NCBI GenBank assembly: GCA_905160935.1
Contig: CAJHZI010000517.1
Coordinates: 1,559,001-1,623,000, forward strand
Origin: Enchytraeus crypticus
Lineage: Eukaryota; Annelida; Clitellata; Enchytraeida; Enchytraeidae
DNA: 64,000 bases
Reading direction: 5' to 3'
A model generated the notes under the pieces. That model was given only the letters and a program-made list of their open reading frames with translations. It was not told where the DNA came from and ran no database searches. Each line of letters starts with the position of its first letter. The stretch's first letter is position 1. The position numbers and the translations under genes were made by a program. This document shows, piece after piece, positions 18,155 through 60,310 of this stretch.

Positions 18155-18312
18155 ATGAGAACGAGGGTTTTCACTTCGACGCTATGTTGTTTGGGCGTGG
18201 CTCTGGCAGCTTACGCTCTATACGTGGAGATGAAGAAGGAACAAGACTCTAAGTACACGGCAGGATGTGATATTAGTGCCAGCATCAGTTGCAGCAAAGT
18301 CTTCACCTCAAA
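18155..18312 (+). CDS. VKOR exon 1
   Basis: ATG in GGCGCCATGA; donor GTATAA after 18312, leaving phase 2. It covers helix 1 and the loop cysteines up to KVFTS. Confidence 0.92.
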
Positions 18313-20723
18313 GTATAACCAAAATACTATTTTCTCTCCTGAAGAATGATTTTTAAAGTTTCTATGTATTTTGCATAAATTTTATAATGTATATTTTATA
18401 ATGTATATTTTATAATGTATATTTTATAATGTATTTTTTATAATGTATATTTTATAATGTATATTTTATAATGTATATTTTATAATGTATATTTTATAAT
18501 GTATATTTTATAATGTATATTTTATAATGTATATTTTCAATATTTTGTTATGTCTCTTATACTCTAACCCAAGTTTTAAAAATATTTATCATATTGACTT
18601 TTAGAAAGTTATCAAAGATTGAGCCTAATTTAAATTTTAATAGCTGATAAAATTTTCCTGAAGCTTATTTATTTTATTTTATCTCTGTATATACTATGTA
18701 TAAATTTAAAGTTTCTAGAAATTGTCAAAATCATCAAAGTCTTCACCTCAAAGTATAACTAAAATATATTTTTCTCTCTTGAAAAATGTTTTTTAAATTT
18801 CTAAATATTTTGCATAAATTTTGTCATGTTTATTGTGTTATGTCTTTCATACTTTAACCCAAGTTTTTTAATAGTTATCATGTCAATATTTAGAAGCTTA
18901 TTGAAGATTGAGCTTAATTTAATTTTAACTGCTGATAAAAATTTCTAGAAGCTTATTTGGTTTGTTGTATCTCTATGTATACTGTGTCTAATTTTAAAGT
19001 ATTTTTAAATTGTTAAGAACTAAAGTACTACTTTATTATGTTGAGGTTCTGCTATTTAAAAAGATGCAGCCTATAGTATAGTTTTCTTTCCTCAATAAGT
19101 AGTACATTTCTTCTATATTTTATGGGCCAAACCAAAAGCCTTATTCTCTTTAGGTACTATTACTTTAAATATCGCTTCATTTGCTTGTTTATTTATTTGC
19201 TTCAATTTGTTACTAGATTATTTTGTACATCCAGCTAAAGAGTTGTCTATGGTATCAGTGCGGTAACGCTGTGATGTTTGTGGAGTAGATATGGACATTG
19301 GTTATGGTTTCTTGGAATATATCATTGGTAAAAAAAGCTAAGGTTAACATCAGTTTCCTCACTTGAAAGCGATTTTAGTGACGGGCAAGCTCAGGATTTG
19401 AACCCGCACATACTGATCCGCGGTCGAATATCTTACCGACTTGCCACTGGCTCCAGCCGGTAATACAGTGTTGTATGTTGAGTAGATATGGACGTGGGTT
19501 TGGTCTACTGGAGTATATCATTGGTACGGATCACCCGCTGAATCTACCTAACAGTGTGTTTGGCCTGGTTTTCTATGCACTTCAAGTCATTCTAGGTAAT
19601 ATGATGATAATAGCAATAATTAGAAATTAAATTTTGAAATAATAATAATTATTATTATTATGATTAATAATTTAATTACTAAATTATTATTATTATTTTG
19701 ATATGATCAATATAATGATAAAATCAATATGTTGATAAAATCAATGTGATGATAAGATCAATATGTTGATAAGATCATTGTGATGATAAAATCAATATGT
19801 TGATAAGATCAATGTGATGATAAGATCAATATGTTGATAAGATCAATGTAATGATAAAATCAATATGTTGATAAGATCAATGTGATGATAAGATCAATAT
19901 GATGATAAAATCAATGTAATGATATTTTTAATATCATTATAAAAATGTTTAAAGTGGTATTTCCAGTGGTGTTTCTGTGACAGTCAATAGCTGTTCATAT
20001 AGTGTTATTAAATCTTAATTTTTGGCTTAATTAAATACTAAATGACAGTGTAGAAAGTTGCTAAAGCTATATGAAAAACTATTTTCATATGGAATAAGTT
20101 AAATATTACAAAATATTTATTATGAATAGAAAAATGTGTTAAATGTTGATATAAAAGTTTATTTTTGCCTATTCAGTCATTTTGATTTATAATTATACGA
20201 AATAAGGTATAATCAAGTGAATAATAAATATGAATTACTCTGTATGAATGTGTCCAACAAATAATTAATTTATGAATGTACTGTATAATGAATATTCAAT
20301 GAATAATGAATGTACTAATGTATAATGAATGCTAAAAGAGATAATAAATAATAAATGTACAACGAATGTTCAATGAATAATGAATGTACTAATGTGTAAT
20401 GAATGCTTAAAGAGATAATAAATAATAAATGTACGACGAATGTTCAATGAATAATTTTTATTTTATTTTACTTAGAAATCACGGAAAGTCTTTCTAGTGT
20501 AAAGGCTCAGCTCGGCATGTGTGTCCTCGCTAACCTGGGCTCAATCTATCTGGCCTCGATCTTGATCTTTGTTCTTGAGGATCTCTGCGTGGTCTGCGTG
20601 ACAACCTACGTGGTCAACTTCCTTCTTCTTCTTTCTAATATCATCCGGTGGCGACATCTGTCCAGTCAGCAGAAGAAATCCTCTGCTAAACGCCGCACAA
20701 ACGGTGCTAAGAAACGTCAATGA
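18155..20723 (+). CDS. Vitamin K epoxide reductase (VKORC1/VKORC1L1 family)
   Basis: Three exons, 18155-18312, 19486-19595 and 20476-20723; 516 coding bases, 171 residues; junction phases 2 and 1. The enzyme is a four-helix ER membrane protein that reduces vitamin K epoxide and quinone using a CXXC pair. Seen here: [10 protein letters not shown] with a first hydrophobic helix, the loop cysteines C38 and C46 ([10 protein letters not shown]), [33 protein letters not shown], and the active site C127-V-V-C130 followed by TTY (132-134), the segment tied to warfarin binding in vertebrates. The C-terminus is basic ([16 protein letters not shown]), as in vertebrate homologues. Length is between human VKORC1 (163) and VKORC1L1 (176). 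The 110-base middle exon agrees with my recollection of vertebrate genes. All catalytic residues are present, so the gene is likely active. Which vertebrate paralogue is closer is not decided. Confidence 0.95.
18296..19017 (+). repeat. Tandem duplication of exon 1 end plus intron start
   Basis: The first copy begins at 'caaagtcttcacctcaaagtata' (exon 1 end and donor, from 18296). The second begins with nearly the same words at 18733. Both continue in parallel through 'attttgcataaatttt' to 'gcttattt...atctct...tata'. Copy 1 is longer because of the 14-bp array. Confidence 0.9.
18378..18535 (+). repeat. 14-bp minisatellite in VKOR intron 1
   Basis: About eleven units of TTTATAATGTATAT, one with a T-rich variant. 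Present only in the first copy of the duplication. Confidence 0.95.
19271..19330 (+). pseudogene. Decayed copy of VKOR exon 2 5' end
   Basis: GGAGTAG then ATATGGACATTGGTTATGG and on to ATATATCATTGGTA repeats the acceptor and first 42 exon bases with substitutions and one extra base that shifts the frame. It stops exactly where SINE-A begins. Confidence 0.85.
19331..19460 (-). mobile_element. SINE-A copy (minus) next to VKOR exon 2
   Basis: Full-length family match from CTGGCTCCAGCC back to AAAAAAGCTAAGGTTAAC. GGTAA flanks it on both sides, a possible short target duplication. Its edge is about 25 bases from the exon 2 acceptor. Confidence 0.85.
19486..19595 (+). CDS. VKOR exon 2
   Basis: Acceptor GTTGAGTAG, donor GTAATA. 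Enters in phase 2, leaves in phase 1, 110 bases. Encodes [19 protein letters not shown] and [16 protein letters not shown]. Confidence 0.93.
19685..19930 (+). repeat. GATGATAAGATCAATATGTT-type minisatellite in VKOR intron 2
   Basis: Units of about 17 and 34 bases with alternating AATATGTTGATAA and AATGTGATGATAA. Confidence 0.9.
20220..20458 (+). repeat. Roughly 100-bp tandem repeat near VKOR exon 3
   Basis: Two long copies of GAATGTTCAATGAATAATGA followed by TGTACTAATG and AGAGATAATAAATAATAAATG, the last running into the acceptor region. Confidence 0.8.
20476..20723 (+). CDS. VKOR exon 3 with stop
   Basis: Acceptor TTACTTAG, phase 1, TGA at 20721-20723. Holds the CXXC ([10 protein letters not shown]) and the last two helices. 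Confidence 0.95.
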
Positions 20724-21659
20724 TAAACTTGTCGCGATATGCTGCTCTTCTTCGTGTGACAATATATTGTGACACTGTTTCACTGTAATGTGTTTAATTA
20801 TGTTAAGTACACTGATGTGTTTTATTGTATTATGTGTGGTAGTTGTTTAATCAAAATTTTTATTATTTTATTTTATTTAAGGCTCAGTGATTGATTTACT
20901 TTATATTTGCTTGCCATCATTTATATTAAAAGTTAAACTTTCAAGATATATTTTAAATAAATCACTGTTTTATTTTTTAAAAGCAAACACTTTTGCGTAT
21001 GAAGTTTTTAGTTTCTTTATATCAAAATATATACCTGCTGGCATTCTATCAAAGAAGTGTGTATTTGTTTTTCTCTATCTTGTATACCATTTTTATCAAA
21101 TAGACTAAATTTATTCTAAATTACTCTTGCTATTAATTACTGAATTAATATATAGATAATTTGTACTTATATCATTTCTAAATTTTTTTCAATATTCGCC
21201 CATAAAATTTCTGAAATTATCTAGGTATATTACTAGGTATATTAGACGATATTAAACAATAGAAAGGGTATATACTCTGTATACTTTAAATTTTAATATT
21301 GTTTGAAGGTATAAATTAAATTTTTAGATTTAATTTATACTAGTGTAACTATAATTGATAATTTATTTATTTAATATAAATTTATTTCCAATTAGCCTAC
21401 TGAAAGCGTAGTATATCTATGTCATACTTCTATAAATGTAATAAATATTTATTATTATCTGATTGCGTGTAATCTTCATTGATAAATTTTGATTCTTATT
21501 GTGTTGTAGATATTGAGTTATCAAATTTTTATTCAGTTAAATTAATATAAAAGACGATATTAAACAATAAAAAGGGTATATACTCTGTATACTTTAAATT
21601 TTAATACTGCTTGAAGTTCAAAGTTAATTTCAGCCTTTGCATATCTATCCTCATGCATT

Positions 21660-21721
<62 letters not shown>

Positions 21722-22150
21722 ATATATATATATATATATATATATAACTTATATTCCACCATTCAGGTAGCAAGACAAGAAACAAACTACAGCACAATCA
21801 TACAAATAAACACAAAAATAGCGCAGAAAAAAAAATCGAAGCAAGTATACACTCAATCAATCAACTAAAAATTAAAAACTAACAATTAATTAAATGATTT
21901 CCAGCGAATGTTCAAAGTAGTTTCGCAATAATGACTTCCAGTCAAGTCTCTCAACCTGGAAGTCCTTTGTCAAGATTCACTTAGTACTCTTGTTGACGCA
22001 GTATTTATTAATCAATGGCAACAACTCTCAATTGAAACAGTTAAAGTATTTACAACAAGTATATCTGAAAGACAAATAAGTGGGCCAAGAACCTCACCCT
22101 TATTTCAAAACTCGTGTAATTTTATTTGTCCAAACCTTTCAGTACTGTTT
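20724..22150. other. Intergenic, AT-rich, no gene seen
   Basis: A (TA)n run at 21663-21747 and a duplicated phrase 'gggtatatactctgtatac' at 21268 and 21573 are the only features recognised. Confidence 0.6.
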
Positions 22151-22154
22151 CATT

Positions 22155-22225
22155 TTTGACGTCCCTGATATTGCCTTATGGCGAGGTGCCGGACGTTAAA
22201 TTCTTATTGATTGATTGATTTTGAT
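22155..22225 (+). repeat. Repeat C tail
   Basis: TTTTTGACGTCCCTGATATT then GGTGCCGGACGTTAAATTC and a (TTGA)n tail. Confidence 0.7.
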
Positions 22226-22784
22226 GTGGTCTCAATAATGAATTTTTAAGATTCTTCTAAGACATCTTTGTTGAAAACAATTTAGTTTGTGTTGTAGTTT
22301 ACTAGTACTTTCCCAGGTTTCACACGCATACATCAAGACGGCAGCATTTCTTTAGTCCCACATCAATTCTATTACCCTTCCTTCTCCGCACCGAACTTTA
22401 AAATATTCATTTTTTGACGTCATCATTCTCTTCTTTAAAGCTAATATATTTACTAAAGCTAAAATAATTATCAATGGATTTAGTTTAGCATTATATCGTG
22501 TGGTTTTATATATGGTCAATTTAAAATTAATGGTTGGTCTCCTTTGACCAGTTTTAATGTGTAATTAAATATCAAGGGGAAAAGCATAATTCTCTTCTGA
22601 GAATAAATCTAAAATTCTCTACTTCCACATTCCATGCGCTTGTGTCGTGGCACAAAATAATCATCTCTGCCACCTCACTATCTCGCTCAGAATCACATCG
22701 ATGTGTAACAATACAATGAGCAAACCATCGATTAACTTGATGAAACTTATTCGATTGAATTTTAATACACCGGCTACACTGGTA

Positions 22785-22905
22785 AAGCCGGTAAAGCTAA
22801 AGTTAACGTCAGTTTCCTCTCTCGAAAGCGATGTCAGTTACGGGCGAGCCCAGGATTTTGAAACCCGCACATGCTGATCCGCGGTCGAATATCTTACACT
22901 GACGC
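22785..22905 (-). mobile_element. SINE-A copy (minus), truncated
   Basis: From AAAGCTAAAGTTAACGTCAG through the complement of the B box to CGGTCGAATATCTTAC; lacks the tRNA-like 5' end. Confidence 0.8.
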
Positions 22906-23171
22906 TCTAAAATAGAAAACAACTTAATCGCATTGGTCCCCCTTATGAATAAAACGTATTCCAAATTGTCATTTAAACTGCGTGAGAAATACAGAACTTG
23001 GCCACCAATACCATTGGTTACGCAGGCCAATGTAGGCCTGACAAATCGATAGATGTAGTTTATCAGTATTTACACGCCCAGTAGCTCCAGCCTGGATAAC
23101 TATAATAACTACTAGAGCACTACCCGAGTCGCAAGGACTTTTCTATTTTAGATTATTTTATTTACTTTTTA

Positions 23172-23335
23172 CAGTGGTTAAAGTGGGGGGAGGGACGCAG
23201 GGAATTACGTTCCCCTAGCTCTCAATCTTTTTGAGGTGCGTTTCCCTGCTAGGGTCCCATAAGCTGCATTTAACGTACATCCCTGATATCATACCTGGAT
23301 GAGGAAACGGACGTTAAGCCTTTATTTATTTTTAT
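23172..23335 (+). mobile_element. MITE remnant joined to Repeat C tail
   Basis: CAGTGGTTAAAGTGG at 23172 matches the 14.3 kb MITE end, with G-rich sequence after it. The right part is a Repeat C tail (CATCCCTGATATCATACC, then CGGACGTTAAGCC). Confidence 0.55.
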
Positions 23336-23746
23336 TAATTTACTTTACTTGCAGACAGATGCATAATTGCATATAGATAACAAAATCAGCAAGGTAGGGA
23401 ACTATTATGAGACACTACAGGTGGAGGAATTGTATTTGGTATCAGTTTATCTACGCAGCAAAGTAGTAACCTGAAAAAAGTTTTAAAAAACTAAAATCCA
23501 TCTGATCGAAAAGTTAATATTAATTATATTCTCAGTATGCCGCCTAACGGCAGGTTTTTGACGTAACTTCACGTATCTTCATTCTCTATTTTGCTTAGCC
23601 ATAATAAATAATTTTAATTTAGTATCCGATTTCTAATCTCGGTCTTCCTCGATTTCTTTGAATTCGTCGTCCTCGTACATTTCTTTAGAAAAAACTATTG
23701 TCGTAGAACTGAATCTAGTAACGATCGTTCATACGGACGATCATTT

Positions 23747-23882
23747 GGCTGGAGTCAGTGGCGAAGTCGGTAAGATACTCGATCGCGGATCAGTATGTGC
23801 GGAGTTCAAATCCTGGGCTCGCCCGTCACTGACATCGCTTTCGAGTGAGGAAACTGACGTTAACCTTAGCTTTAGCTTTTTT
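23747..23882 (+). mobile_element. SINE-A copy
   Basis: GGCTGGAGTCAGTGGCGAAG start, B-box region GTTCAAATCC, AGCTTTAGCTTTTT end. Near full length. Confidence 0.85.
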
Positions 23883-23889
23883 ACCATAC

Positions 23890-24600
23890 ACGTCGCAAAA
23901 CTTAATCTTGAAGATGTCATTACAATTATTATTTTTCTCTAAACCTACTACTCTTTAGTCTCTTTAATTTGTATTTAAGTATTTAGGATAGCTGCCATTA
24001 GCTTTATATGGAAAAGTGCCGCTGGTAATGCAAATGTCATTTGGTATATTAATTACCCTACAGTTTATTCCGTAACTCACTTAACTTGTGCCAATTCAGT
24101 AAAGGTGGCACGAAATGCTTTATCTTGAAGAGAAGCTTTGTGCTTCTGACATTGACGTTAAGCACACTACAACCCAGCTACTATTACTTTGCGTTAGTGA
24201 GTACACCATTTAACTGCTGCACTGACGCAGTTAAAGCTAGTTTAGAGGGATCTGTTAGATTCTGGATATCTCAGTTAATTTTACCGTACGTGAAAGTCCA
24301 CATACGCAACTAAGACGTTCTTGCAATCTGGATGCGAGAGAGACCAATTTCCCAAAATGCTCAGCATCCAAACTGACAAATAGCGTCGCTTTATTCTAGT
24401 TCCAAAAATAAATCCTGGTAAAGAAAGTGTTACAGCAATCTTTAGTATCACATTGTATCCTTGAATACAATCTTTCAGCTAATTTATATTGAACTAAGGA
24501 AAAAGTTGGTACTGCCAATAATTTTGCTTTAACCTAGCTTTAAGCTTTAAGCTTTTTTAGGTGAACTTATCTATACATATGAGACTAGATCAGTTTATCG
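23890..24600. other. Intergenic, no gene seen
   Basis: Unremarkable; an open frame at 24086-24313 shows no domain. Confidence 0.45.
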
Positions 24601-25180
24601 ATTAATTGAGTGGCTATTTGATTGATTGATTGATTTGTTGGTTCATTGATCGATATCACTGACTATATGATTGATTGATAAGCAATTTATCGAATGACTG
24701 ATTGACTTTCCTACTGTCTGACTACTGCATATCTTGAGTGATTGATTGATTGATGGTCATGTTGATTTATTAACTGATTGAATGACTGATTGCTGGATTG
24801 ATTGGTTTATTGGTTTAGTTAGTATTTGATTGAGAGACTGATAAATTGATTGATTAATTATCTAAATGGTTGGCTGATTGTTTCATTGATTCATATAGTA
24901 TTATTTATTAATTTAGTGGTTGATTAAATGAGAGATTGATTGACGGATAAATCGACTGATTATGTGATTGATTAACAAATTGATTGATTGATAGGGGTCT
25001 ATCATTATTTCATACATTTATTGATTAATTTTACATTTATCATAGATTCATGGATGAATCGATTAATTTACTTGATTGGTTAACGGATTGATTGATATGG
25101 CATAGTTCTATCAATTTTTTTCATTTATTAAAGATTTATTTGACTTTTTGCTTGACTAATTGATTGATTGATTGCATGGC
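24600..25180 (+). repeat. Degenerate (GATT)n field
   Basis: ATTGATTGATTG words in varied contexts up to the SINE-A copy upstream of the aquaporin start. Confidence 0.8.
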
Positions 25181-25211
25181 GACTGAGCACACCAACAAAG
25201 CTTGCTCAGTC

Positions 25212-25315
25212 GACGCGTATCAGTGTGTGCGGGGTTCAAATCCTGGGTTCGCCCGTCACTGGCATCGCTTTCGAGTGAGGAAACTGACGTTAACATTAGA
25301 TTTATCAGCTTTACA
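25212..25315 (+). mobile_element. SINE-A copy about 100 bases before the aquaporin start codon
   Basis: GTGCGGGGTTCAAATCCTGG, then GAGTGAGGAAACTGACGTTAAC. The 5' third is missing. It lies in the probable 5' UTR or promoter. Confidence 0.8.
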
Positions 25316-25419
25316 ATTGATTAATTGCTACAGATAACTGAATGATTGCTGCAGACAACTGATTGATTGATTGATCTATGGATTGATCTGTTGATAACTC
25401 GATAGCTGCACGTCTAGAG

Positions 25420-25566
25420 ATGGCGCCAGGTGTCCTATCAGACATCATTGCGAGTAGCGAGACATTTGATAGACCTTGGAGAGAGAGACTTAGAGACAGA
25501 CTTAGACTATCTAACAGAGTCATCATCGAGGGTCTGGCGGAGTTCATCGGTACCTTGGTCCTGCTG
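25420..25566 (+). CDS. Aquaporin exon 1
   Basis: ATG after CTAGAG (purine at -3, G at +4); donor GTAGGC, phase 0. Encodes a charged N-terminus (WRERLRDRLRLSNR) and the start of helix 1. Confidence 0.9.
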
Positions 25567-25602
25567 GTAGGCTTTCTTCTGATTTCTTCTTAGAAGCTGT
25601 CT

Positions 25603-25640
<38 letters not shown>

Positions 25641-25719
25641 CTCTCTCTCTCTCTCTCTTGCTCTCTCTCTCTCACTCTATCTATCTGTCGTTTCTCTCTC
25701 GCTCTCTCACTCTCACTCA

Positions 25720-25761
<42 letters not shown>

Positions 25762-26287
25762 TTTGACCCTAGGGAATATTTTTATGTTGTTGACTTATCT
25801 GGTCTTTGAAAACAGTCCACTTGTTACCGAGGCGAACACTCTAACCTCTACGCCATATGCCTTAAATTATTTACAACTCATTATTATGTGTTTCTACTAT
25901 CAAATCAATTAGCATATACACCGGTTTCAAATAAGACCCACGCATCTGATGTAATACTATGGGGCTGCGTACAATTGGATTCGCACTAGCTGTTGAGAGC
26001 GTTATTGATTGATTTTAAAGTTGCACATTTGTTCTGAACACCTTATGCTTGAGGACGTGACAGAGCATACAGTAACACTAAAAGATGTTGACGTTCAGAA
26101 GATGAAAACAACAAATTGTAGCTCAGTCCCGTTGTTACAGATTCAAGAGGTCCACAACCCCTAAACTTATAAATGCTGTCATTATTTGAATAGGCTTCAA
26201 TCACGCTTCCGAGCTGAGTTGATGATGATGATGATGATGATGATGTTGATAACAATGATGACGATGACGACGACGACGATGATGACG

Positions 26288-26319
<32 letters not shown>

Positions 26320-28461: not shown

Positions 28462-28496
<35 letters not shown>

Positions 28497-28523
28497 AAGA
28501 AAGAGAGAGAGAGAGAAAGAGAA

Positions 28524-28568
<45 letters not shown>

Positions 28569-31500
28569 AAGAGAAAGAGAGAGAGAGAAAGAGAGAGAGA
28601 GAGAAAGAAAGATAACCATTTCATCGCCCAACAAGATAACTTCGACGAAAGTGTCCAGGAGTCGAACCCCGTACATTATGACACGAGCCCCGTACTCTTA
28701 CCAGAGAGACAAACAAGAGATTTTTGGTTCCAAAGTCAATTCGAATATTTCGTACACTAAACTTTTGGTTTAAAGCTTTTTATCTAAAGTTTTACGTTAG
28801 TTTCTGGCCAGGCACTATATTTTAACCCTAAAAGTACTGGTCCTCAGTCAGATACCTGTAAATATGGATTACATCTATAAATCAAAAAGAATTTAACCGG
28901 TTCTTCGCCACAAGGCAACGTCAAACAATCAATAAGAATTTAACGTTCGGTTCCTCGGCAAAAGGCATGTCAGTGACGTCAATGGCTCAACCAAGTGGTT
29001 TCCTTATCGTAGATTAAGTCGGGAGGGAATTTAGGTTAATTGAAATTAATTTCATTAATAAAATTAATTGCAGATTTATTGAAATACAATTTAGCCTGCG
29101 TGTGACGACATTCCTCACTGCATGGAACAGCAGTGGGTGTAACCTCGATTTGCTGATTGGGTCGAATTTATTGTTCAATTTGATGACTTTGATTGATTGA
29201 ATAATTAGTTGATTGATGTACACTTAAGCCAAACAATTCTAGTTTAATCTATCTACAATTCTGGCTGGATCCAGTGGCGATATTGGTAATGTACTCGACC
29301 GCGGATCAGTATGTGCGTGGTTCAAATCCTGGGCTCTCCCGTCACTGACATCGCTTTCGAGTGAGGAAACTGACGTTAACATTAACTTTACCAGCTTTTT
29401 ACCAGAATACACTTTACATGTATATTAAATAATATATTTATAATAATTTATTCTATCTACAATTTATCACACACAGACGCTCTGAATGAGTTCGACGGAG
29501 GGGTGAGACAAGTGGTGGATCATCCAAATGCCACTGGAGGGATATGGGCCACCTACCCCCAGCCTTACGTCACAGTGCTCGGTGGTATCATAGATCAGGT
29601 TAGCCTATAGTTGATTGGAGCCAGTGGCGATGTCGGTAAACTATTCACAAGCGCATCAGTATGTGCGGGGTTTAAATCCTGAGCTCACCCGTCACTGACA
29701 TCGCCTTCGAGTGAGGAAACTGATGTTAACATCGGCTTTACCGCTTTTAACATTTTACGAAACTTAATTAATACCAATTTTTATCTATTTTTAGCTATTT
29801 CTCTATTTCATTTAGTAGTTGCGCTAATTGTAGAATAAATAATTTTTATATAGATTGCTTGATTGATTGTAACAGAGCGTAGTCGTTTGATTGTAACGTT
29901 TAGGATATGTTTCCTTAGGCCAATGACCTTGTGTACGCTGGTGGATCTGATAAATTATCAGATGAATTAATTGATTGATTGATATTATTGGACAGTTTGA
30001 TTTGATCGATTAATTAATTAATGTATTTAGAGGGTAGTAAATGATTGATTAACAACAGATTATTTGTTTTCTTGATTGAATTGATCAGTTTATTGATTGA
30101 TTCATTCATTAATCGGCTGACTGATTGATGAATTGATCAATTGATTGATCGACTCAATGATTGACTGACTGATTGAATAATTGATCAACGGAGTGATTAA
30201 CGAAATGATCGATCAATTTATTGATTGATTGTCTCAGACACTTGGCACAGCCCTGCCGATGCTCTGTGTCAATGATTGGTTGATTGATTGATTGATTGAC
30301 TGACTGATTGAGTGATTTATTTATTGACTGGCTCAGTCTGGCTAATTGAATGATTGATTGATTGTCTCAGATACTTGGCACGGCCCTGCTCGTGCTGTGT
30401 GTATGCGCTGTGACAGATCTCAACAACACTGCGCCCTCTGGAGGGCTCGCCCCACTCGCTATAGGCCTGGTGGTGCTGGGTATCGGGGTGTCTCTGGGGT
30501 TCAACTGTGGGTACCCCATCAACCCAGCCAGGGACCTCTCAGCCCGGCTCTTCACCGCAGTGGCTGGGTGGGGCACTCCAGTCTTCACGTGAGTAGCCGT
30601 TTTGAATCAGTATGTGCGGGGTTCAAATCCTGGGCTCGCCCGTCACTGACATCACTTTCGAGTGGGGGAAATTGAAGCTAACGATAGCTTTTAGATTTTT
30701 TCTCTATTTTGGAATTGCACCGTTTTTGGACCTTCTTTTGCTCACCGGCTTGGATTTGTCTCAATAGTGCTCGATGTTGTCATTGATGACAATAGACTTT
30801 AATTCCTATTATTATAATAAAGAATATCGATTGAGCCGGTAGCAAGTTGATAAGATGTCCTACTGAAGGTCGATTGATGCAGGATTCAAATCCAGTGCTC
30901 TCTCCCAGTTGCTGATATGCTGTTGAGATTGAAACGGACGCCAAACAATTGACAGTGGCTTCAGTCGAGATAAAACTTAAATCTAATTGCGCAGTAAAAC
31001 TACGCGATCACAATGGTGATTTGACACCTCTGTGGAAAGCTAAATGATTAGACTATAATTAAATCATCGACTTTGTGAAGGATTAACTTGCTGATCTAAG
31101 GAGTGCTCTTATGGAGCGAGAAGGCAGACTTTGAGTATGAATATGTACCTTGAACCTGCCACTTGGCAGTGCACTGAAGCAGATAAGAAGAATTAATTCA
31201 TATGATATCTAATAGTTAATTTATTAGATATTTATTAGAGCTTTCAATTAATAATATATAATAATAATAACCTCCGATAACTTCTATAGCGGTGTCATGA
31301 CCGGTGTCCGGTCTTCGAGACCGCTTTATAGGTTCCTGGAAGGTTATTATTAATCCTTTCCATGGTTAATCATATGTTTGCTATTGGTAGCGCCAATCGG
31401 CAGGAAGCACCGATACAAGATTAACCTTCCATGGGCCTTCAAGGGGATATCCATCATTACTTGACTGATCTTGACTGAATTGATTGATTGATTGATGCAT

Positions 31501-32592
31501 GAACACCACTGTAGAGCACGTAACTACTGGTGTTGGGTACCTGTGATCATTCCTCACTTCGGCGCTCTGCTGGGAGCTCTGTTCTATAAACTATTCATCG
31601 ACCTTCACCTTCCATACGTCATCAGTGACGTCACTATCACGCCATCACGTGATCACGGAGCGAGCAGGAGTGGTTCATATGCACCGTGTTAGTAAAAATA
31701 ATAGTGCTCGATGTTGTCATGGACGACAGTAGCGCGGTAGTTGTTGGCTTGTTGCTATGTTATGTCTAGACGATATATTGCTGAACTACTGTTAATAGTA
31801 AAAGAATAAGGAGTAAATCAATTATGAAATACGATAATTATTTAGTTATCGTTTTAACTCCTCGTGTTGTGTCCGTCCCCGTGTTGTGTCCGGTTTGTTG
31901 GAAGAAGCCCGACCGGATACTGCAAGTGTCGTAGTCGTAGAAGGCGACAAAGCACTAAGATCCAAACCAACGTCAGCACTGGCATTCCTTTGGTGAGCGC
32001 TTAGGCTCCAGAAATTGCTACAATATTTCCTAATCCCGACCATAGTTAAACAGGAAACAAGGAACGATGATGATGTTGATCAAAGTATTTATAGTATCCG
32101 AAGTAAAATGTTAGAAAACTCAGAACAAATAGTACAAGTATCTTTATGTTAGTCAAAATAAAGATACTGATAGAATTGCTTGAATGAATTTATTTATCTC
32201 ATTTCAAAGTCAATAGGCCTACTTCAGTTAATTTTTTAACATTTATATCGTTTTCTTACTTCTCCTCAGCACATTTCTTTTGCAGATTGGTCTGGGTGAA
32301 CTGATCTGTAGTGATGTGTGCTGTTGGGGACGTCCCTGACATCATAATTTAATGAGGAAACGGACGTTAAACCTTTATTATTATTATTTTTATTTGAACA
32401 GATATGGATGGAATAATCAACGCACATTTCAACGACTCTCAACAGGCTCCTGACGCAGCCCCGAGAAAGATTAAGAAAGACGGGGGAACAACAGAGGGGG
32501 GTGTGTACCCCGGGGAGTCTCTGAGTCTTGCACCTCTCAAAGAGCTTCCCCCCTTGGATCCGAGAAAAACTGAATACTCGCACCGTCTATAG
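25420..32592 (+). CDS. Aquaglyceroporin (aquaporin, GlpF/AQP3-like)
   Basis: Seven exons: 25420-25566, 26427-26559, 27833-27970, 29477-29598, 30371-30588, 31515-31687 and 32402-32592; junction phases 0, 1, 1, 0, 2, 1; 1122 bases, 373 residues. It is a six-helix channel for water and small solutes such as glycerol. Seen: AEFIGTLVLL in helix 1; GHLNPAVT with the first NPA at 98-100; ATYPQPYV in loop C; GYPINPARD with the second NPA at 231-233; Asp after NPAR, the aquaglyceroporin mark. Aligned by eye to GlpF, the ar/R filter is W78, G219, Y228, R234, which suggests glycerol permeability. A sequon NAT at 157 lies in loop C, where AQP3 is glycosylated. The 60-residue C-terminus after YAP comes from exon 7. 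If exon 6 is not spliced, it ends at TAG 31690-31692 and the protein is 311 residues. Introns carry SINE-A copies and microsatellites. Confidence 0.93.
25600..25760 (+). repeat. (CT)n microsatellite in aquaporin intron 1
   Basis: CTCTCT runs broken by TTGCTC and TCACTC. Confidence 0.95.
26218..26338 (+). repeat. (GAT)n microsatellite in aquaporin intron 1
   Basis: GATGATGACGACGATG variants over 120 bases, ending 85 bases before the exon 2 acceptor. Confidence 0.95.
26427..26559 (+). CDS. Aquaporin exon 2
   Basis: Acceptor TTGGCAG; donor GTGAGT, phase 1. Encodes IFGYGCVAQLVLSRVGTP and HWGWAIGVAMGVWVSAGVS, helices 1-2. Confidence 0.92.
26635..26935 (+). repeat. (TAACTA)n degenerate microsatellite in aquaporin intron 2
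   Basis: About 45 TAACTATAAC-type units. It runs into a SINE-A copy. Confidence 0.9.
26938..27036 (+). mobile_element. SINE-A copy, 5' truncated
   Basis: GATCAGTATGTGCGGGGTCC, then the family body and TTTACCAGCTTTTT end. Confidence 0.85.
27833..27970 (+). CDS. Aquaporin exon 3
   Basis: Acceptor CACTTCCAG; donor GTACAA, phase 1 on both sides. Encodes GHLNPAVTLTMAVLGRLQW and helix 3. Confidence 0.94.
28015..28430 (+). mobile_element. LINE 3' end fragment in aquaporin intron 3
   Basis: Plus-strand remains of a LINE ORF2 C-terminus with frameshifts: 'aagatattaggaaactgg', 'gaagaatggaaaggattag', then 'agacccacgcatatgtgg' and CCATGGACCTGCCAGTAG. Matches the 51.5-52.1 kb copy in order. Confidence 0.85.
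28428..28612 (+). repeat. (GA)n microsatellite as LINE tail
   Basis: GAGAGAGAAAGA variants that start immediately after the LINE 3' end. Confidence 0.95.
28905..28985 (-). repeat. Repeat C tail (minus)
   Basis: AATTTAACGTTCGGTTCCTC and TGTCAGTGACGTC, the complement of the tail at 22155. Confidence 0.55.
29266..29402 (+). mobile_element. SINE-A copy in aquaporin intron 3
   Basis: GGCTGGATCCAGTGGCGATA through GTTCAAATCCTGGGCTC to TTTACCAGCTTTTT; full length. Confidence 0.9.
29477..29598 (+). CDS. Aquaporin exon 4
   Basis: Acceptor CACACAG; donor GTTAGC, phase 0. Encodes loop C with NATGGIWATYPQP and GGIIDQ. Confidence 0.92.
29614..29752 (+). mobile_element. SINE-A copy 16 bases after the exon 4 donor
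   Basis: TTGGAGCCAGTGGCGATGTC to CGGCTTTACCGCTTTT; full length with a few substitutions. Confidence 0.9.
29940..30370 (+). repeat. (GATT)n field with a copy of the exon 5 start
   Basis: Degenerate ATTGATTG sequence. At 30221-30273 the acceptor and first 35 or so bases of exon 5 appear once as a diverged copy (GTCTCAGACACTTGGCACAG). Confidence 0.85.
30371..30588 (+). CDS. Aquaporin exon 5
   Basis: Acceptor TGTCTCAG; donor GTGAGT, phase 2. Encodes ILGTALLVLCVCAVTDL, helix 5 and GYPINPARDLSARLFTAVAG. Confidence 0.94.
30604..30702 (+). mobile_element. SINE-A copy 16 bases after the exon 5 donor
   Basis: GAATCAGTATGTGCGGGGTT to GATAGCTTTTAGATTTTTT; 5' truncated. Confidence 0.85.
30715..30810 (+). 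repeat. Repeat D copy
   Basis: 'ggaccttcttttgctcaccg' to 'agtgctcgatgttgtcattg'. Relatives at 31700, 43520, 48475 (minus), 49828 (minus) and 58255 (minus). Confidence 0.75.
31080..31190 (+). repeat. Repeat F fragment (opposite to the 54.6 kb copy)
   Basis: 'aaggagtgctcttatggagc' to 'ccacttggcagtgcactgaa' is the complement of the 54.6 kb repeat start. Confidence 0.65.
31515..31687 (+). CDS. Aquaporin exon 6
   Basis: Acceptor CACTGTAG, phase 2. Encodes NYWCWVPVIIPHFGALLGAL (helix 6). Donor GTTAGT after 31687 in phase 1; without it the frame ends at TAG 31690-31692. Confidence 0.88.
31700..31750 (+). repeat. Repeat D fragment
   Basis: AGTGCTCGATGTTGTCATGG then 'gacagtagcgcggtag'. Begins 13 bases after the exon 6 end. 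Confidence 0.7.
31840..32080 (-). repeat. Repeat E copy (minus)
   Basis: Complement of the 53 kb repeat: 'tggtgagcgcttaggctccag', 'taatcccgaccatagttaaac', ending ATGATGATG. Confidence 0.6.
32230..32395 (+). repeat. Repeat C copy directly before aquaporin exon 7
   Basis: Longer form as at 4905: 'ctcagcacatttctttt', 'gacgtccctgacatcataa', GGACGTTAAACC and a (TATT)n tail that becomes the pyrimidine tract of the exon 7 acceptor. Confidence 0.75.
32402..32592 (+). CDS. Aquaporin exon 7 (C-terminal tail)
   Basis: Acceptor TTTGAACAG; phase 1 joins TAT (Y) and MDGIINAHFNDSQQAPDAAP. Stop TAG at 32590-32592. The tail is hydrophilic and has no known motif; support is phase, position and length only. 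Confidence 0.65.
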
Positions 32593-32599
32593 TTACCAT

Positions 32600-33015
32600 C
32601 TCTACAGAAAAACTTTAGAAAAAACTAAAAAAAATCGATATCCCCAGAAAAATTTCAGACAACCAAAACCAGAAAAGTTTCAGAAAACCCCAAAATATCG
32701 ATATCATCTGAAAAACATTAAGAAAACCCCCAAAAATATCGATAACACCAGAACAACTTACGAAAACCCAAGAAATAATCAAGATCACAGAAAAAAGTTG
32801 TAAAAGAACCCAGAATATATCAATATCACCTAAAAAGCTTCAGAAAACCATAGAAACAATCAGTATCTCAGGAAAACGTGTAAAAATCCAGAAAATATCG
32901 ATATCGCCCGAAAAGCTTCAGAAAACCCCAGAAACATTCAATATCTCTGGAAAAAGTGTAAGAAACCCAGAAAATATCGATATCACCTGAAAAGTTTCAG
33001 ACAACCCCAGAAGAG
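32600..33015 (+). repeat. Degenerate ~48-bp tandem repeat after the aquaporin stop
   Basis: Units of AATATCGATATCACC plus TGAAAAGTTTCAGAAAACCC. Probably within the 3' UTR. Confidence 0.85.
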
Positions 33016-33433
33016 AGGACAGAGGCGTGTCGACCAAAAGACTGTGAACTCTCTGACGATACAAAAATCAGAATTTTCAAAAATATACCTTTTGAAATGA
33101 AATACAATATTTTCTAAAGCATGATCAAAATTATTAGGCAGCTGACTTTCAAACCTGACTGACGTTCAAACCTTTAGTTGATTTATTTCAATCAGTGAAA
33201 TGGTATAGGAGAACAAATTAATTACCACAGCAAAAACAATCTGTTATTTTACAGCCATGTAGCTCTTTGTATCATTAAATACATGTAGATTGATTTGGAT
33301 AATAACTAGTTTTATTAAATTAATTAATTACCAATCCGGGAAAATAAATTTAAACGAAACAAATTAGTCCGTATAGTGGATTAATTTAGCCTATAATTAA
33401 TTTTAGTAGATTCATATATAATGTCTACATTGC

Positions 33434-33530
33434 GTAGGAGTAACGTCATGAAGTTTTAAATGACAGATTCTGAGCGAATTGAACTTTCGTGGGCTCAAAT
33501 CCCATCCGCGCTGATCTGAGAGCATTACTG
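33434..33530 (+). mobile_element. SINE-B 5' part
   Basis: GTAACGTCATGAAGTTTTAA to the B-box-like GGGCTCAAATCCC and CCGCGCTGATCTGAGAG; lacks the 3' tail. Confidence 0.7.
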
Positions 33531-33559
33531 TCATTCAGTATTACTGTATTTAGTAATGT

Positions 33560-34320
33560 TAGTATTTAGCATTTACTGTCTGCGTCAACACATCCGAGTT
33601 GATCCAACCACCTACTACAGTATTGTAGCATACATGTATATTTCAAAAATTCCTTTAATGAAATCATAAAAAATTGGCATTCTTCATACACAATTATTCC
33701 AGAATCATTACAGAATAATTTAGGACTTCGATATTCTATTTTATATTTCAACATATATTTAACGCGTTTGCACATCTCAAAGGACAATAGATTAGACTAA
33801 TAGATTTGCACATCATAAATGCATAAAAACCTCCACAAAAGGTATAAAATTATAAATCAGTGAGAATTTAAAGTCCTCACATATAATAGGCATAAGTGGC
33901 ACAAATAAATGTTTCACAAAATAAATTGTTTGAGAGTTCAGTAGCTGATTAACTAAATTCAGTTAATTAGTTTGTACCTGGCGGTTTCTAGGCGAAAGAA
34001 GTTATTGGCTACACACCTTTATTTCGATAAATAATGATAGCATATTTACATAGACTAACACTATTAACACTTATTAACACTCAATTAAACAATATACAAA
34101 AAATTGTCCAAAAGTATTAAAAAATGTATCATTTACAGCCACTCAGATAATCTAGTTTCAGAAGCTATTTGCTCTTTATATTTATAATGCACTTTATAAT
34201 TTATTTTAATTTTATATAATTTAATTAATATTTAAATATTAATATTTAAATATTTAGAATATATTTAATTTATATTTTTAAATTATATAATTTTTATATT
34301 ATATAATTATATTTATAATA
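33560..34320. other. Intergenic, AT-rich, no gene seen
   Basis: AT-rich to the point of (ATTTAAAT)-type runs at 34200-34320; nothing else recognised. Confidence 0.55.
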
Positions 34321-34329
34321 GAAGCTATT

Positions 34330-34660
34330 TAATCTCGTAAGTTTCAGCAGCTATTCGCCAATTCTTGGACACCTTTTTTTAGACAATTATTGATTAATTA
34401 ATGTCGTTAATCTATTTATTTGATCTACTTACTCATGTGTTTTCGGCAGCTATTCGCCCATTCCTGGACACATTTTTTAGAAAAATATTGACTAAATTAC
34501 TTTAGTTAATCTACTTATTTGATCTATTTAATCTTGTAAGTTTCGGCAGCAATTCGCCCGTTCTTGGACACCTTTTTTAGAAAAATATTGATTAAATTAA
34601 TTTCGTTAATCTATTTTATCTACTTATTCTTGTGAGTTTCGGCAGCTATTCGCCTGTCTC
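34330..34660 (-). repeat. ~100-bp tandem repeat that includes the end of TM6SF exon 7
   Basis: Four copies of TTTCGGCAGCTATTCGCC with following TTCTTGGACACCTTTTTTAG spaced about 100, 100 and 95 bases. The rightmost copy is the last coding part and stop of the TM6SF gene. Confidence 0.85.
34415..34420 (-). terminator. Candidate polyadenylation signal for the TM6SF gene
   Basis: AATAAA on the minus strand, about 200 bases after the stop, inside the ~100-bp repeat. Confidence 0.3.
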
Positions 34661-34808
34661 TCGAGTTATCCGCCAGACATCTCAAGGCGAGCAGATGAGG
34701 CTGGATGAGTAGGAAGACGTTGACGAGAAAGAATATGGACTGAGACGAGGAAGGTATGCGATACTCTGGAGCTGTGCTGGAATAGAAGGGTGCTAGGATA
34801 TGTGGAAA
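34620..34808 (-). CDS. TM6SF exon 7 with stop
   Basis: Acceptor GGCTCAG; 63 codons including TAG at 34622-34620. FPHILAPFYSSTAPEYRIP and NVFLLIQPHLLALRCL align with the end of human TM6SF2; the last residues are THKNK. Confidence 0.9.
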   Translation of the reverse strand, partial: FPHILAPFYSSTAPEYRIPSSSQSIFFLVNVFLLIQPHLLALRCLADNSRDRRIAAETHKNK

Positions 34809-34970
34809 CTGAGCCTATTAATCAATCAATCAATCAATCAATAAAATCAATCAATCAATAAATGATTTATTTCAATGTTATTCTGATAGATATTTGATAT
34901 ATTGATTGATTGCTTGTTTGATTCATTGATTGAATGATTGATTGATTGATTGCTTAATTGATGGACCAAC

Positions 34971-35014
<44 letters not shown>

Positions 35015-38000
35015 TGATTAACTGATTGATTGATTGATTGATTGACAAATCGTACCTGAGCGGCCGCTCCGGCACAAAGTATTGACCAGTCAGTTAACCA
35101 GCTGGACATGGATGGACCGTTAGAAATCAAAGATGATACAGACATGACGTAGAACGGTACAAAGTAGAACAAGTAGACTAGCATCTACACAGACAAACAG
35201 TAGAACAAGTAGACTAGCATCTACACAGACAAGCAGTAGAACAAGTAGAGTAGCATCTACACAGACAAACAGTAAAACAAATAGACTAACATCTACACAG
35301 ACAAACAGTAGAACAAGTAGACTAAAATCCACACACACACACAGTTGAACAATTTATTTAATCCTCAATCAATTTATATATATATATAAATTATATATAT
35401 ATTTTTTATTTATTAATTAATTTAAAGTAATTTATATATATACATATATATAAATTATATATGTCGAGATTAGGTATGTTAGAAGATTTAAAGACCCACT
35501 CATGTGTGGAAATGAAGAGGAAGGCGGAAGAGAAGAGTGGAGGCGTCATATACCATGGACCTGCCAGTAGACAGTGCACTAAGAGAGAGAGAGATATATA
35601 TATACATTGGCTGGAGCCAACATTAGCGATGTCGGTAAAATATTCGACCGCGGATCAGTATGTGCAGGATTCAAATCCTGGGCTCAACCGTCTCTGACTT
35701 CGCTTTCGTGTGAGGAAACTGATCTTTTCTAATTTCTGTAGAAAATATCAACAAAAAGCAGAGAAATCAACGTTTGTCCAACGATTTTTATATAATTAAA
35801 GTAAATTAAATGATACAATTCCAGTTTGAGTTTTGTCATATTGGATACAAAAAGCAACAAAATTTAAATTAGAAATATGTATGAAGATTAAAATAAATAA
35901 GATTAAACTTAAAAAAATGGAAATATTAATAATGTTAAGATGTACCTGCACTTTAGGAAAGGCCACAGGATCGTTGAGATACGGCTCATAGTTCTTTATA
36001 TAGTTCTTTGTAACGTCATGTGAGCAACCAAGAACAGCCTGACAAAGAATGGATTACGCATAGATTAAAATTATGGATTAGGAATAGATTAGAATAATGG
36101 ATTATGCATAGATTAGAATAGTGAATTATGCATAGATTAGAATAATGGATTATGCATAGATTAGAATAATGGATTATGCATAGATTAGAATAATGAATTA
36201 TGCATAGATTAGAATAATGGATTATGCATAGATTAGAATAAAAGATTATGCATAGATTAGAATAAAAGATTATGCATAGATTAGAATAATGGACTAGAAG
36301 AGTGTAGAAAAATGAACATTGAATATTACTCATGAATTGAAAAATTACAGCGTTAATCAATCAATTATGATAGAATCAGATCACTTACTTAATTAGTAAA
36401 TGATACTGAAGATAAATTATTTATAGCAAATTTTATAAATAATTCAGCTCAGTATATAATGATCAAACAAATGAAAGAAGTAATTAAGAATTAATGAATG
36501 TGTGAAGAGATTTAGTAAATGATAAAAAAGCTAAAATGAAGCTAATTAAAGAAAACTAAACTTAACCAATCAGAAATTAATAACCTGAAGGCACATAAAA
36601 CACGCAATCTACCATAATTATGTAGCCTAATTAAATATAAATTTCCAAACTTTTCATTAACTGTAACTCTTCATTATCAGTATATTTCATGCTACTTGTA
36701 AATTTTGTATACTATTTTATGTGTTGAACAATCTACGGACGTCAGATTATGTGATGAAACAACGAGGAATTGATTGTAGTTTGTTACTGTCAAGGCAATG
36801 CAAGATATTGACATAATAGCAATAACAATATAGAACAAATAAAAATCAAATAGACTAATATATAATAATTGTGACAACTATGGCGAGGAACCGGACGTTT
36901 AATTCTTATTGATTGATTGATTGAGCTTGGAGAAGAATAGGTCTAAACAGAGTATTTCATGCAGACACAGCTGACAGCCACTTATCTCTGCACTGTCTTA
37001 TCTACGCACGAAGATTTACAACCTCTGATTAGAGTAATAGCGAGCAACTTACAAAGCCTCGAAACAGAGCTATCAGCAATGACAAGACTAGAGAGATGAT
37101 AAGAACTAGGTCAATAGGTCTACTTCCTAGACCTTGACCTTTCTGTGTGACCCCCTTTCTCGTAGAATTTCCCTCCCTATATTCCTGTCGGGGATTTCCC
37201 ATGCTATTAATAGATCTATAATCTGTGGAGGGATAAGAAGACGAAGGTCGTTGGTTTAGAAATTGCGCCGCAGACAGGAATGGGAAGAACATGTAGGGCA
37301 CGTTCAGCAATACTGACCATCTCACTCCAAACTTACCTGGAAAATAGTTAGGCTAAATATTAACAAAATATATTTACATATATTTCGTCCCTGACATTGG
37401 CTTATGGCGAGGAACCGGACGTTAAATTCTCATTGATTGATTGATTGATATTAACAAATATCTCTCTCTCTCTCTCTTAGTGCACTGCCTACCGGCAGGT
37501 TCATGGCATATAACGCCTCCACTCTTCTCTGTCTTTAGCTTTCCTCTTCATGTCCACATATGAGTGGGTCTTTAAACCATCTAACATACCTAATCTCGGC
37601 CTGTCTCTGCCTCTACTTCCTTCCATTCTACTTTCTATGACCTCTTTTAGTAGACCTTCCCCCCTTAGAATGTGTGCTATCCAACTCTTCTTTCTATTTC
37701 TTAATACATTTATCAACTGCCTATCTGTATCAACTTTTCCAGAACTTCCTCATTTGTAACCTTTTGAGCCCAGCTAATCCTCTCCATTCTTTCCACATTT
37801 CCACATTACACATTTCCACAGACATCCACATTTCCAATGCCTCCAGTTCCTAATATCTTCCTTCCTTAAGGTCCATGTTTCACAACCATACAATAGCGTG
37901 GTCCAAACCAAGGTTTTCACTATCTTTATCTTTGTGTCTTTCTGTAGACTTTTTGTTAAAAGATTTTTCCTATTACTGAAGGCCACTTTTGCTTTTGTGC

Positions 38001-46789: not shown

Positions 46790-47012
46790 TATAGTGAATA
46801 ATCAACTATGTTGATATCTATCACTTTTAAAACCACATGTTTAATCAGTTAGGCAATTTAGACCATTTTCCGTATAACCAGTCCAGTGAATGTCCGAGAT
46901 TTTACTTTCACATCAGCGCGGCTGAAATTCGAAACCACGAGGGTTCAATTCACCTCAGGATTTGTCATTTAAAACTTCATGACGTTACCCCTACGCTATT
47001 TAGACATTTTAC
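46790..47012 (-). mobile_element. SINE-B copy upstream of the Sp gene
   Basis: TCAACTATGTTGATATCTATC start, GTTAGGCAATTTAGACC, complement of a decayed B box, ATGACGTTACCCCTACGC end. About 100 bases upstream of the ATG. Confidence 0.8.
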
Positions 47013-48954: not shown

Positions 48955-49190
48955 CTTAATAGCGTAACGGTAAAGTCATGAAGCTCTAAATGACAGATCC
49001 TGAGGTGAATTGAACCATCGTGCGTTCAAATAACAGCCGCGCTGATCTGAGAGTAAAGTCTCGGACATTCACTGGACTGGTTATACTGAAAACGGTCTAA
49101 ATTGTCTAACGGTTTAAACCTGTGGTATTAAAAGAAGTGAAAGATATCAACATAGTTGATCATTTCACAATAATGCGTATTAACTGTTTA
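48955..49190 (+). mobile_element. SINE-B copy, near full length
   Basis: TAATAGCGTAACGGTAAAGTC start, GTGCGTTCAAATAACAGCCG (B box changed), GGACATTCACTGGACTGG, AGTTGATCATTTCAC end. Confidence 0.8.
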
Positions 49191-60009: not shown

Positions 60010-60221
60010 TGTCTCAGCAGCGTAGGGGTAACGTCATGAAGTTTTAAATGACAGATCATGAGGTGGATTAAACCCTCGTGGGTTCGAATCCCAGCCGCGC
60101 TGATCTAAGAGTAAAATCTCGGACATTCACTGGACTCGTTATATGGAAAATGGTCTAAATTGCCAAACGGTTTAAAAATGCGGGATTAAAAAGTAATATA
60201 TTAAACATATGGTATTGAAAA

Positions 60222-60283
<62 letters not shown>

Positions 60284-60310
60284 CATAGTTGATCAATTCA
60301 CTGTGATGCG
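60010..60310 (+). mobile_element. SINE-B copy with a (TA)n expansion near its end
   Basis: GCAGCGTAGGGGTAACGTCA, intact B box GGTTCGAATCC (60080), CAGCCGCGCTGATC. The 3' tail is interrupted by about 55 bases of TA before AACATAGTTGATC. Confidence 0.88.

Follow-up and report, generated by a model that had tools for sequence, protein, structure and literature searches.

Chance-level copies of exon edges, probably of several origins, and ATTG arrays beside splice acceptors in a 64-kb region of the Enchytraeus crypticus genome

We examined a 64,000-nucleotide stretch of the genome of the annelid Enchytraeus crypticus (assembly GCA_905160935.1, contig CAJHZI010000517.1, positions 1,559,001 to 1,623,000 of the forward strand), referred to here as the window, for partial copies of exon edges lying close to the exons from which they derive. 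Six such cases in four genes had been described in a first-pass annotation, which took them to suggest a general process acting on exon edges. We found that edge copies occur at chance frequency for this window. They are probably ordinary local duplications that arose in several ways and fall across exon boundaries by coincidence. Partial exon copies then arise in this window at the rate expected of a repeat-rich genome, and no special mechanism is needed to account for them. A separate feature of the window is that ATTG arrays in sense orientation adjoin splice acceptors more often than chance would predict.

Edge copies and their frequency

The window is AT-rich, with a G+C content of 35% across its 64 kb, and carries animal-type genes. 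Our gene models, all of which read in frame, comprise 28 exons and 44 splice sites (22 acceptors and 22 donors) in six genes, namely a HYR-domain receptor-like gene, a profilin-like gene, VKOR, an aquaporin gene, a TM6SF-like gene and a C2H2 zinc-finger gene. The donor of HYR exon g was adjusted after the in-frame translation of the models, and the revised version carries no new translation. Pfam matches supported the HYR, profilin, VKOR, MIP and zf-C2H2 assignments. The TM6SF-like gene gave no Pfam match, and TM6SF is presumably the right name for it. Edge copies were checked by self-alignment of the window with blastn and by pairwise alignment, and tandem arrays were located with Tandem Repeats Finder (TRF). 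The six cases, together with a short interspersed nuclear element (SINE) that belongs to one of them, are as follows, with the evidence for each in brackets.

1424..1671, plus strand: HYR exon c acceptor edge and two upstream partial copies (self-blastn, alignment, exon model, arrays)
18292..19016, plus strand: VKOR exon 1 donor edge, tandem duplication (tandem-repeat search, self-blastn, exon model, alignment)
19261..19526, plus strand: VKOR exon 2 acceptor edge, direct repeats of 68-70 bp around a complete SINE (SINE and flank analysis, alignment)
19334..19458, minus strand: tRNA-type SINE between the VKOR exon 2 edge copies (SINE consensus and flank comparison)
30220..30402, plus strand: aquaporin exon 5 acceptor edge and upstream copy (self-blastn, exon model, alignment, arrays)
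34325..34657, minus strand: TM6SF exon 7 array covering the C-terminus, stop codon and 3' untranslated region (UTR), with no splice edge (tandem-repeat search)
35163..35352, minus strand: TM6SF exon 6 acceptor edge as a 36-bp minisatellite of 5.3 units (tandem-repeat search, exon model, alignment)

For five splice edges (HYR, VKOR exons 1 and 2, aquaporin exon 5 and TM6SF exon 6), self-alignment of the window bore out the partial copies that had been described. The sixth case, at TM6SF exon 7, had also been counted as a splice edge and is instead a copy of the stop codon and 3' UTR.

Local duplications were scored after microsatellites had been masked and with a shift of at most 600 bp. Other settings varied the maximum shift from 150 to 1000, the margins, and whether interspersed repeats were kept or removed. 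Local duplications amounted to 5964 bp, or 9.3% of the window, and took up 19% of its intron bases; over the range of settings, these shares were 8-9% of window bases and 16-19% of intron bases. Among exon bases, 200 of 6665 bp (3%) were duplicated, and the duplications reached 21-49 bases into the exon in the six cases (49, 21, 41, 32, 22 and 35 bp).

We observed 5 of the 44 splice sites within local duplications. When the gene models were shifted circularly around the window, the mean number was 3.80 (standard deviation 1.99), and five or more sites were reached in 34% of the shifts. Removal of interspersed repeats, which dropped 3 of the 60 local matches, the SINE pairs included, gave a circular mean of 3.38 (P = 0.27). 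Tighter settings likewise revealed no excess, with 3/44 sites at a maximum shift of 150, 4/44 at 300 and 4/44 with wider margins. The circular P values across all settings were 0.27-0.51, the lowest for an excess being 0.266. Placement at random intronic positions gave an expectation of 6.4-7.8 sites, so that the excess of edge copies over random intronic placement expected of a general process is absent from the window. Targeted edge-copying was therefore rejected on the counts, the five observed sites standing against 3.4-3.8 for circular shifts and the still larger number for random intronic positions.

The resemblance among the copies has a simple geometric basis. Whenever one end of a duplication falls in an exon and the other in an intron, the unavoidable outcome is an intact exon together with a partial copy that holds one splice site and some coding sequence. 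Selection would remove duplications that break an exon outright, and with these lost, the survivors would all resemble edge copies beside an intact exon.

Origins of the individual copies

HYR exon c (1623-1782, 160 bases) has its real edge at 1611-1671. The upstream copy at 1511-1571 is 93.5% identical to this edge (72/77), and the copy at 1424-1451 is 89% identical to it (32/36 columns, gap included). Two ATTG arrays, at 1449-1514 and 1569-1616, lie between the copies and the real edge. The motif GATTG occurs at only two sites in exon c, 1639 and 1671, and both copies stop at or beside them, as would be expected had they been joined to the ATTG array through short homology (microhomology). 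At aquaporin exon 5 (30371-30588), the copy at 30220-30269 is 90% identical to the real edge at 30353-30402, and ATTG arrays occupy 30269-30330 and 30342-30369. These are the only two of the six cases tied to ATTG arrays, and each of the two duplications includes such an array. That they lie in ATTG arrays follows from the placement of sense ATTG arrays next to acceptors.

The VKOR exon 1 duplication differs in scale. Its first copy (18292-18728) begins within exon 1 (18155-18312), and its second copy (18732-19016) aligns with the first in two pieces that are 86% and 80% identical. The size of the tandem duplication is about 290-440 bp, and the second copy alone measures 285 bp, well beyond the upper limit of about 100 bases that had been given for the copies. 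A 14-bp minisatellite at 18379-18537 sits within the first copy, which gained it, and not around it.

Both TM6SF cases are minisatellites. At exon 6 (35056-35184), each repeat unit consists of the acceptor plus about 22 exon nucleotides. Upstream of the real edge stand four units, which agree with it at 35, 35, 33 and 31 of 36 positions. The acceptor AG is present in the real edge and in three upstream units and is absent from the most upstream one. The exon 7 array, a 3' UTR minisatellite, has a 100-bp unit repeated 3.4 times.

HYR, aquaporin exon 5, VKOR exon 1 and TM6SF exons 6 and 7 would be products of tandem duplication, with joins at short homology in HYR at the least. VKOR exon 2 appears to have another origin. 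Its two edge copies (19261-19330 and 19458-19526) are 81% identical and form direct repeats of 68-69 bp that abut both ends of the SINE, with a gap of 0 bp at the 5' end and of 3 bp at the 3' end. The score of this flank repeat is 71. In a control of 72 pairs of flanks taken from different SINE copies, the median score is 16 and the 95th percentile 30; the top control pairing, at 168, joins neighbouring SINEs that have 84 flank bases in common. The SINE differs by 8.7% from our own consensus and the two direct repeats differ from one another by 18.6%. The former value is about half the latter, as expected if the SINE and the repeats are of equal age. VKOR exon 2 is thus best read, from these alignments, as a SINE insertion with a target-site duplication of about 68 bp, which would have arisen by target-primed insertion. 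This case suggests that a SINE insertion is able to leave a duplicated exon edge of 68 bp.

A second SINE, at 29263-29399, has a possible 21-bp flanking repeat, the downstream member of which lies just 5' of the aquaporin exon 4 acceptor.

These origins bear on the mechanism proposed in the first-pass annotation. In place of the one shared architecture that it described, we find at least three different origins. Embedding of the copies in GATT-type or minisatellite arrays holds for HYR and aquaporin exon 5 (ATTG arrays) and for TM6SF exons 6 and 7 (minisatellites); it fails for VKOR exon 2, where a SINE lies between the copies, and for VKOR exon 1, where the minisatellite is inside one copy. 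Five of the six cases can fairly be called tandem duplications near repeats, and in HYR the copies end where the microhomology that was invoked would place them.

Weighing the explanations for the copies

A general process that preferentially copies exon edges into adjoining introns would explain why five splice edges and one stop-codon edge are duplicated in four genes, and the GATTG microhomology at the HYR breakpoints is in keeping with it. However, the hit count is that of random placement, whether judged by circular shifts or by random intronic positions. The cases also fall into three or more architectures, one of which flanks a complete SINE and is best taken as its target-site duplication, and one case is not a splice edge at all. 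We therefore regard such a process as very unlikely. It is more improbable still that the copies are assembly artefacts, a concern that had been raised at the outset. Such repeats are easily misassembled, and the nearest TM6SF exon 6 units are 1 base in 36 off the real edge. However, the HYR, VKOR and aquaporin copies diverge from the real edges by 6-20%, which argues against an artefact; the TM6SF exon 7 units diverge to a similar extent, and a SINE separates the pair at VKOR exon 2.

The explanation that we favour, ordinary local duplications of several origins, has its own difficulties. The gene models on which the counts depend were drawn by eye, from sequence alone. The count is small, with a Poisson 95% interval of 1.6-11.7 on five sites, so that a threefold excess is compatible with it and power is low. 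Local duplications are commoner in introns than outside genes, with 14 of 21 hand-merged events intronic compared with 36% of non-exonic bases (P = 0.0055), or 12 of 19 events without the two interspersed-repeat pairs (P = 0.028); some gene-linked process could thus exist. With regard to short homology at the joins, the exonic break of aquaporin exon 5 has no GATTG. With regard to the SINE insertion, a long repeat at both ends is found at VKOR exon 2 only, among nine near-full-length SINEs in the window. In a second element, a 21-bp repeat scores a marginal 32 and lies 2 bp from one end and 44 bp from the other; in the remaining seven, the best local matches score 13-25 and lie at least 14 bp from at least one end. 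No SINE target-site duplication near 68 bp appeared among the literature matches listed, which left most subscription journals uncovered and are not evidence of absence.

Predicted consequences of the decoy sites

The copies had also been proposed to supply decoy splice sites or material for exon growth. As they stand, the decoys are predicted to be unproductive: in silico splicing led to an in-frame stop codon after every decoy tested. For the two HYR decoy acceptors, the stop codon came after 21 and 54 nt. It came after 54 nt for the aquaporin exon 5 decoy, after 43 nt for VKOR exon 2 and after 36 nt for the upstream units of TM6SF exon 6. Read-through past the VKOR exon 1 donor meets an in-frame stop at 18347. 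From their predicted products, the decoys look like neutral relics that would at most be sources of unproductive transcripts.

ATTG and CAAT arrays beside splice sites

We counted ATTG and CAAT arrays of at least 16 bp (and also of at least 20 bp) in the direction of each gene, with binomial P values that treat sites as independent. At 6 of the 22 acceptors, a sense ATTG array ends no more than 15 bp away (5 of 22 for arrays of at least 20 bp), compared with an expectation of 0.2-0.3. The acceptors concerned are the following.

HYR exon c, 1622
HYR exon g, 6295
aquaporin exon 5, 30370
aquaporin exon 6, 31514
TM6SF exon 7, 34815
TM6SF exon 2, 39568

None of 633 circular shifts reached six such acceptors, and the binomial P value is 1e-7 to 6e-6. 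In a stricter control, in which TRF arrays were shuffled within their own introns, 3 of 14 arrays of the AATC class lay within 15 bp of an acceptor compared with 0.48 expected (P = 0.01). The same shuffle gave no significant result for donors (1/14 within 15 bp, P = 0.38; 2/14 within 30 bp, P = 0.24). Microsatellites of all classes taken together are likewise enriched, in that 5 of 31 lie no further than 15 bp from an acceptor, where 0.77 are expected, and classes other than ATTG/CAAT are also enriched near intron ends.

The placement of the two arrays looks polarised. None of the 22 acceptors has a CAAT array within 60 bp, and two have one within 130 bp, roughly as many as expected by chance. 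Of the 22 donors, two have a CAAT array within 30 bp (0.2-0.4 expected; P = 0.02-0.06) and none has an ATTG array within 130 bp. The co-occurrence of a CAAT donor and an ATTG acceptor in the same intron gave a Fisher P value of 0.013 with three donors, as judged from pairing, and of 0.065 with two donors, as judged by the array tracker.

The sequence upstream of the ATTG acceptors is also distinctive. Their longest pyrimidine run averages 3.2, compared with 5.0 at the other acceptors (P = 0.004; n = 6 vs 16), partly because the array fills that stretch. The pyrimidine fraction differs as well (P = 0.023) and U content does not (P = 0.57), for the same samples. Matches to yUnAy at positions -60 to -13 number 6.5 at ATTG acceptors and 1.5 at the others.

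SINE-like repeats with an ATTG-array tail were noticed by eye near 22202, 36904 and 37428 and are a possible source of some ATTG arrays. The idea that the GATT arrays at acceptors are SINE tails was rejected, as no element of this kind was visible next to the HYR acceptor array on inspection by eye; the other acceptors were not systematically tested.

Pairing between intron ends

Complementary simple repeats are present at both ends of 3 of the 22 introns (HYR b-c, HYR f-g and TM6SF 6-7). These introns, together with a fourth in which the ends also form a stable duplex, are as follows.

1001..1622, plus strand: HYR intron b-c, with a CAAT array 24 nt from the donor and ATTG 6 nt from the acceptor; ends pair at -34.2 kcal/mol
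5285..6295, plus strand: HYR intron f-g, with a CAAT/ATTA-type donor end complementary to an ATTG acceptor end; -31.7 kcal/mol
29599..30370, plus strand: aquaporin intron 4-5, with ATTG arrays up to the acceptor; ends pair at -30.0 kcal/mol, mostly via non-repeat sequence
34815..35055, minus strand: TM6SF intron 6-7, with sense CAAT arrays from 5 nt past the donor and a sense ATTG array up to the acceptor

In TM6SF intron 6-7, the two arms of a perfect 21-nt inverted repeat lie 10 nt from the donor and 7 nt from the acceptor, respectively. An end duplex of about -30 kcal/mol or lower was found in 4 of the 22 introns, compared with 0.6% of 4000 random pairs at the same spacing (P of about 1e-5), and a threshold of -25 kcal/mol again gave 4 of 22 (binomial P = 0.001-0.003). 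With 60-nt ends, the ends of the same intron paired at a mean of -16.5 kcal/mol and swapped ends at -11.4 kcal/mol, a difference reached in 0 of 20000 permutations; the P value was 0.016 for 100-nt ends and 0.08 for 150-nt ends.

Other controls gave a range of results. The pairing of intron ends exceeded that of shuffled ends at P = 0.03, that of direct instead of inverted ends at P = 0.004 and that of internal segments of the same introns at P = 0.07. Internal segments pair nearly as well as the ends in HYR f-g (P = 0.14) and TM6SF 6-7 (P = 0.13). A rank test of the whole group against random pairs was weak (P = 0.12 for all pairs, 0.04 for genic ones), and the effect was gone once the six ATTG introns were left out. 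In the predicted fold of minimum energy for TM6SF intron 6-7, the CAAT array that pairs is an inner one and not that on the donor side. In whole-intron folds, the path length between splice sites did not set introns with arrays apart from the others, and whole-intron folding was rejected as a non-discriminating test of bridging.

Readings of the ATTG arrays

Two functional readings of these arrays can be weighed, and we hold neither with confidence. The ATTG arrays at acceptors may pair with CAAT arrays at donors and so bring the intron ends together, with the edge duplications there as a by-product; we consider this possible but on balance unlikely. The polarity of placement points towards it, as do the four end duplexes near -30 kcal/mol, the advantage of own over swapped 60-nt ends and the shorter pyrimidine runs. 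However, the pattern was found post hoc, in a single window and from sequence only. The within-intron shuffle weakens the signal at acceptors and leaves none at donors, and CAAT arrays also lie near two acceptors, as by chance. The pairing signal itself weakens with longer ends and against internal segments and depends on the six ATTG introns, and neither the fold of TM6SF 6-7 nor the whole-intron folds lend it support. A fuller form of the same idea would have an intron class bounded by CAAT at the donor and ATTG at the acceptor, the paired ends of which define or help splicing as AC and GT repeats do in fish; the HYR and aquaporin exon 5 copies would be side effects of the instability of arrays retained next to splice sites by selection. 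We put this forward as a speculative proposal.

The branch point offers another account of the acceptor side. Branch points have the motif yUnAy, which TTGAT fits. The ATTG arrays could accordingly be expanded branch-point sequences, tolerated or favoured as many branch points, with pairing playing no role. Both the larger number of yUnAy matches and the position of the arrays, where branch points lie, agree with this, and 3 of the 6 ATTG introns have no CAAT-type partner seen at the donor end. It leaves unexplained the CAAT arrays at 2 of 22 donors and their occurrence in the same introns as ATTG acceptors, and the enrichment of other microsatellites near intron ends is likewise against it. 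Branch-point motifs are the simpler reading for the acceptor side than pairing; as an account of the arrays we likewise consider them possible but on balance unlikely.

Other repeats in the window

A second family with a tRNA-like stretch, probably another SINE as judged by eye, occurs at 4494-4819, 46800-47000, 48960-49180 and 60020-60290, with two copies lying head to tail at 4494-4819. In the profilin intron, a 27-bp minisatellite at 10858-11214 resembles, by eye, the 3' end of repeats like long interspersed nuclear elements at 35460-35590, 37480-37600 and 52000-52130. This minisatellite looks as if it had been seeded by a retroelement end.

Comparison with known systems

Introns bounded by complementary repeats are known from fish, in which introns bounded by AC and GT repeats are spliced without U2AF2 (Lin et al. 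2016, as described in the reviews PMC9198270 and PMC7404189). Like these introns, those of the window have complementary simple repeats at opposite ends that are able to pair. They differ in that the repeats here are the tetranucleotides CAAT and ATTG, in another genome. For the independence from U2AF2 described in fish, the weaker pyrimidine tracts at the ATTG acceptors are no more than a proxy. With other repeats than AC and GT, the introns of the window may work like the AC/GT class and are not members of it as defined. Among the literature matches listed, which left most subscription journals uncovered and so are not evidence of absence, there was no study of CAAT/ATTG-bounded introns. A sense-polarised placement of ATTG at acceptors and CAAT at donors, if it holds, would extend repeat-bridged introns to another repeat and another genome.

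For VKOR exon 2, the structure is that of other SINEs with target-site duplications, namely a complete SINE with direct repeats at both ends. Against the repeat of about 68 bp seen here, target-site duplications measure 4-14 bp in Aspergillus SINEs (PMC5063351) and mostly 18-24 bp in the class taken as the youngest in Entamoeba (PMC2996970).

The pattern of the edge copies, for which the first-pass annotation knew no name, has published precedents (PMC4974935, PMC2812944). In the potato RdRp gene, a tandem duplication across an intron-exon boundary is described as a route to intron gain, and the same gene also has an 83-bp intronic tandem duplication (PMC4974935). As here, the duplicated piece in potato spans the 3' splice site and the first part of the exon. 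Head-to-tail repeats with a splice site and coding bases are present in the window at HYR, VKOR exon 1, aquaporin exon 5 and TM6SF exon 6; TM6SF exon 7 is not of this kind, and the VKOR exon 2 pair is split by a SINE. Tandem duplications have likewise been proposed for some novel introns in Drosophila (PMC2891723). Internal tandem repeats at exon-intron boundaries alter the structure of human genes (PMC2812944). These have units of about 30 bp in about four copies, like TM6SF exon 6, and unlike the repeats of the window they were identified from transcripts and belong to segmental duplications specific to primates.

A counterpart of TM6SF exon 6 is the human gene IFI6 (6-16), in which a minisatellite supplies splice donors that are reported to be used in RNA (Turri et al. 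1995, as cited in PMC4526556). The new potato intron is spliced and use in RNA is reported for IFI6, whereas the copies of the window, TM6SF exon 6 included, are known from DNA alone, and the decoys tested led to stop codons. The sites supplied are donors in IFI6 and acceptors in TM6SF. In both genes, minisatellite units with a splice site stand at the end of an exon, and TM6SF exon 6 thus has the structure of a splice-site minisatellite of the IFI6 type.

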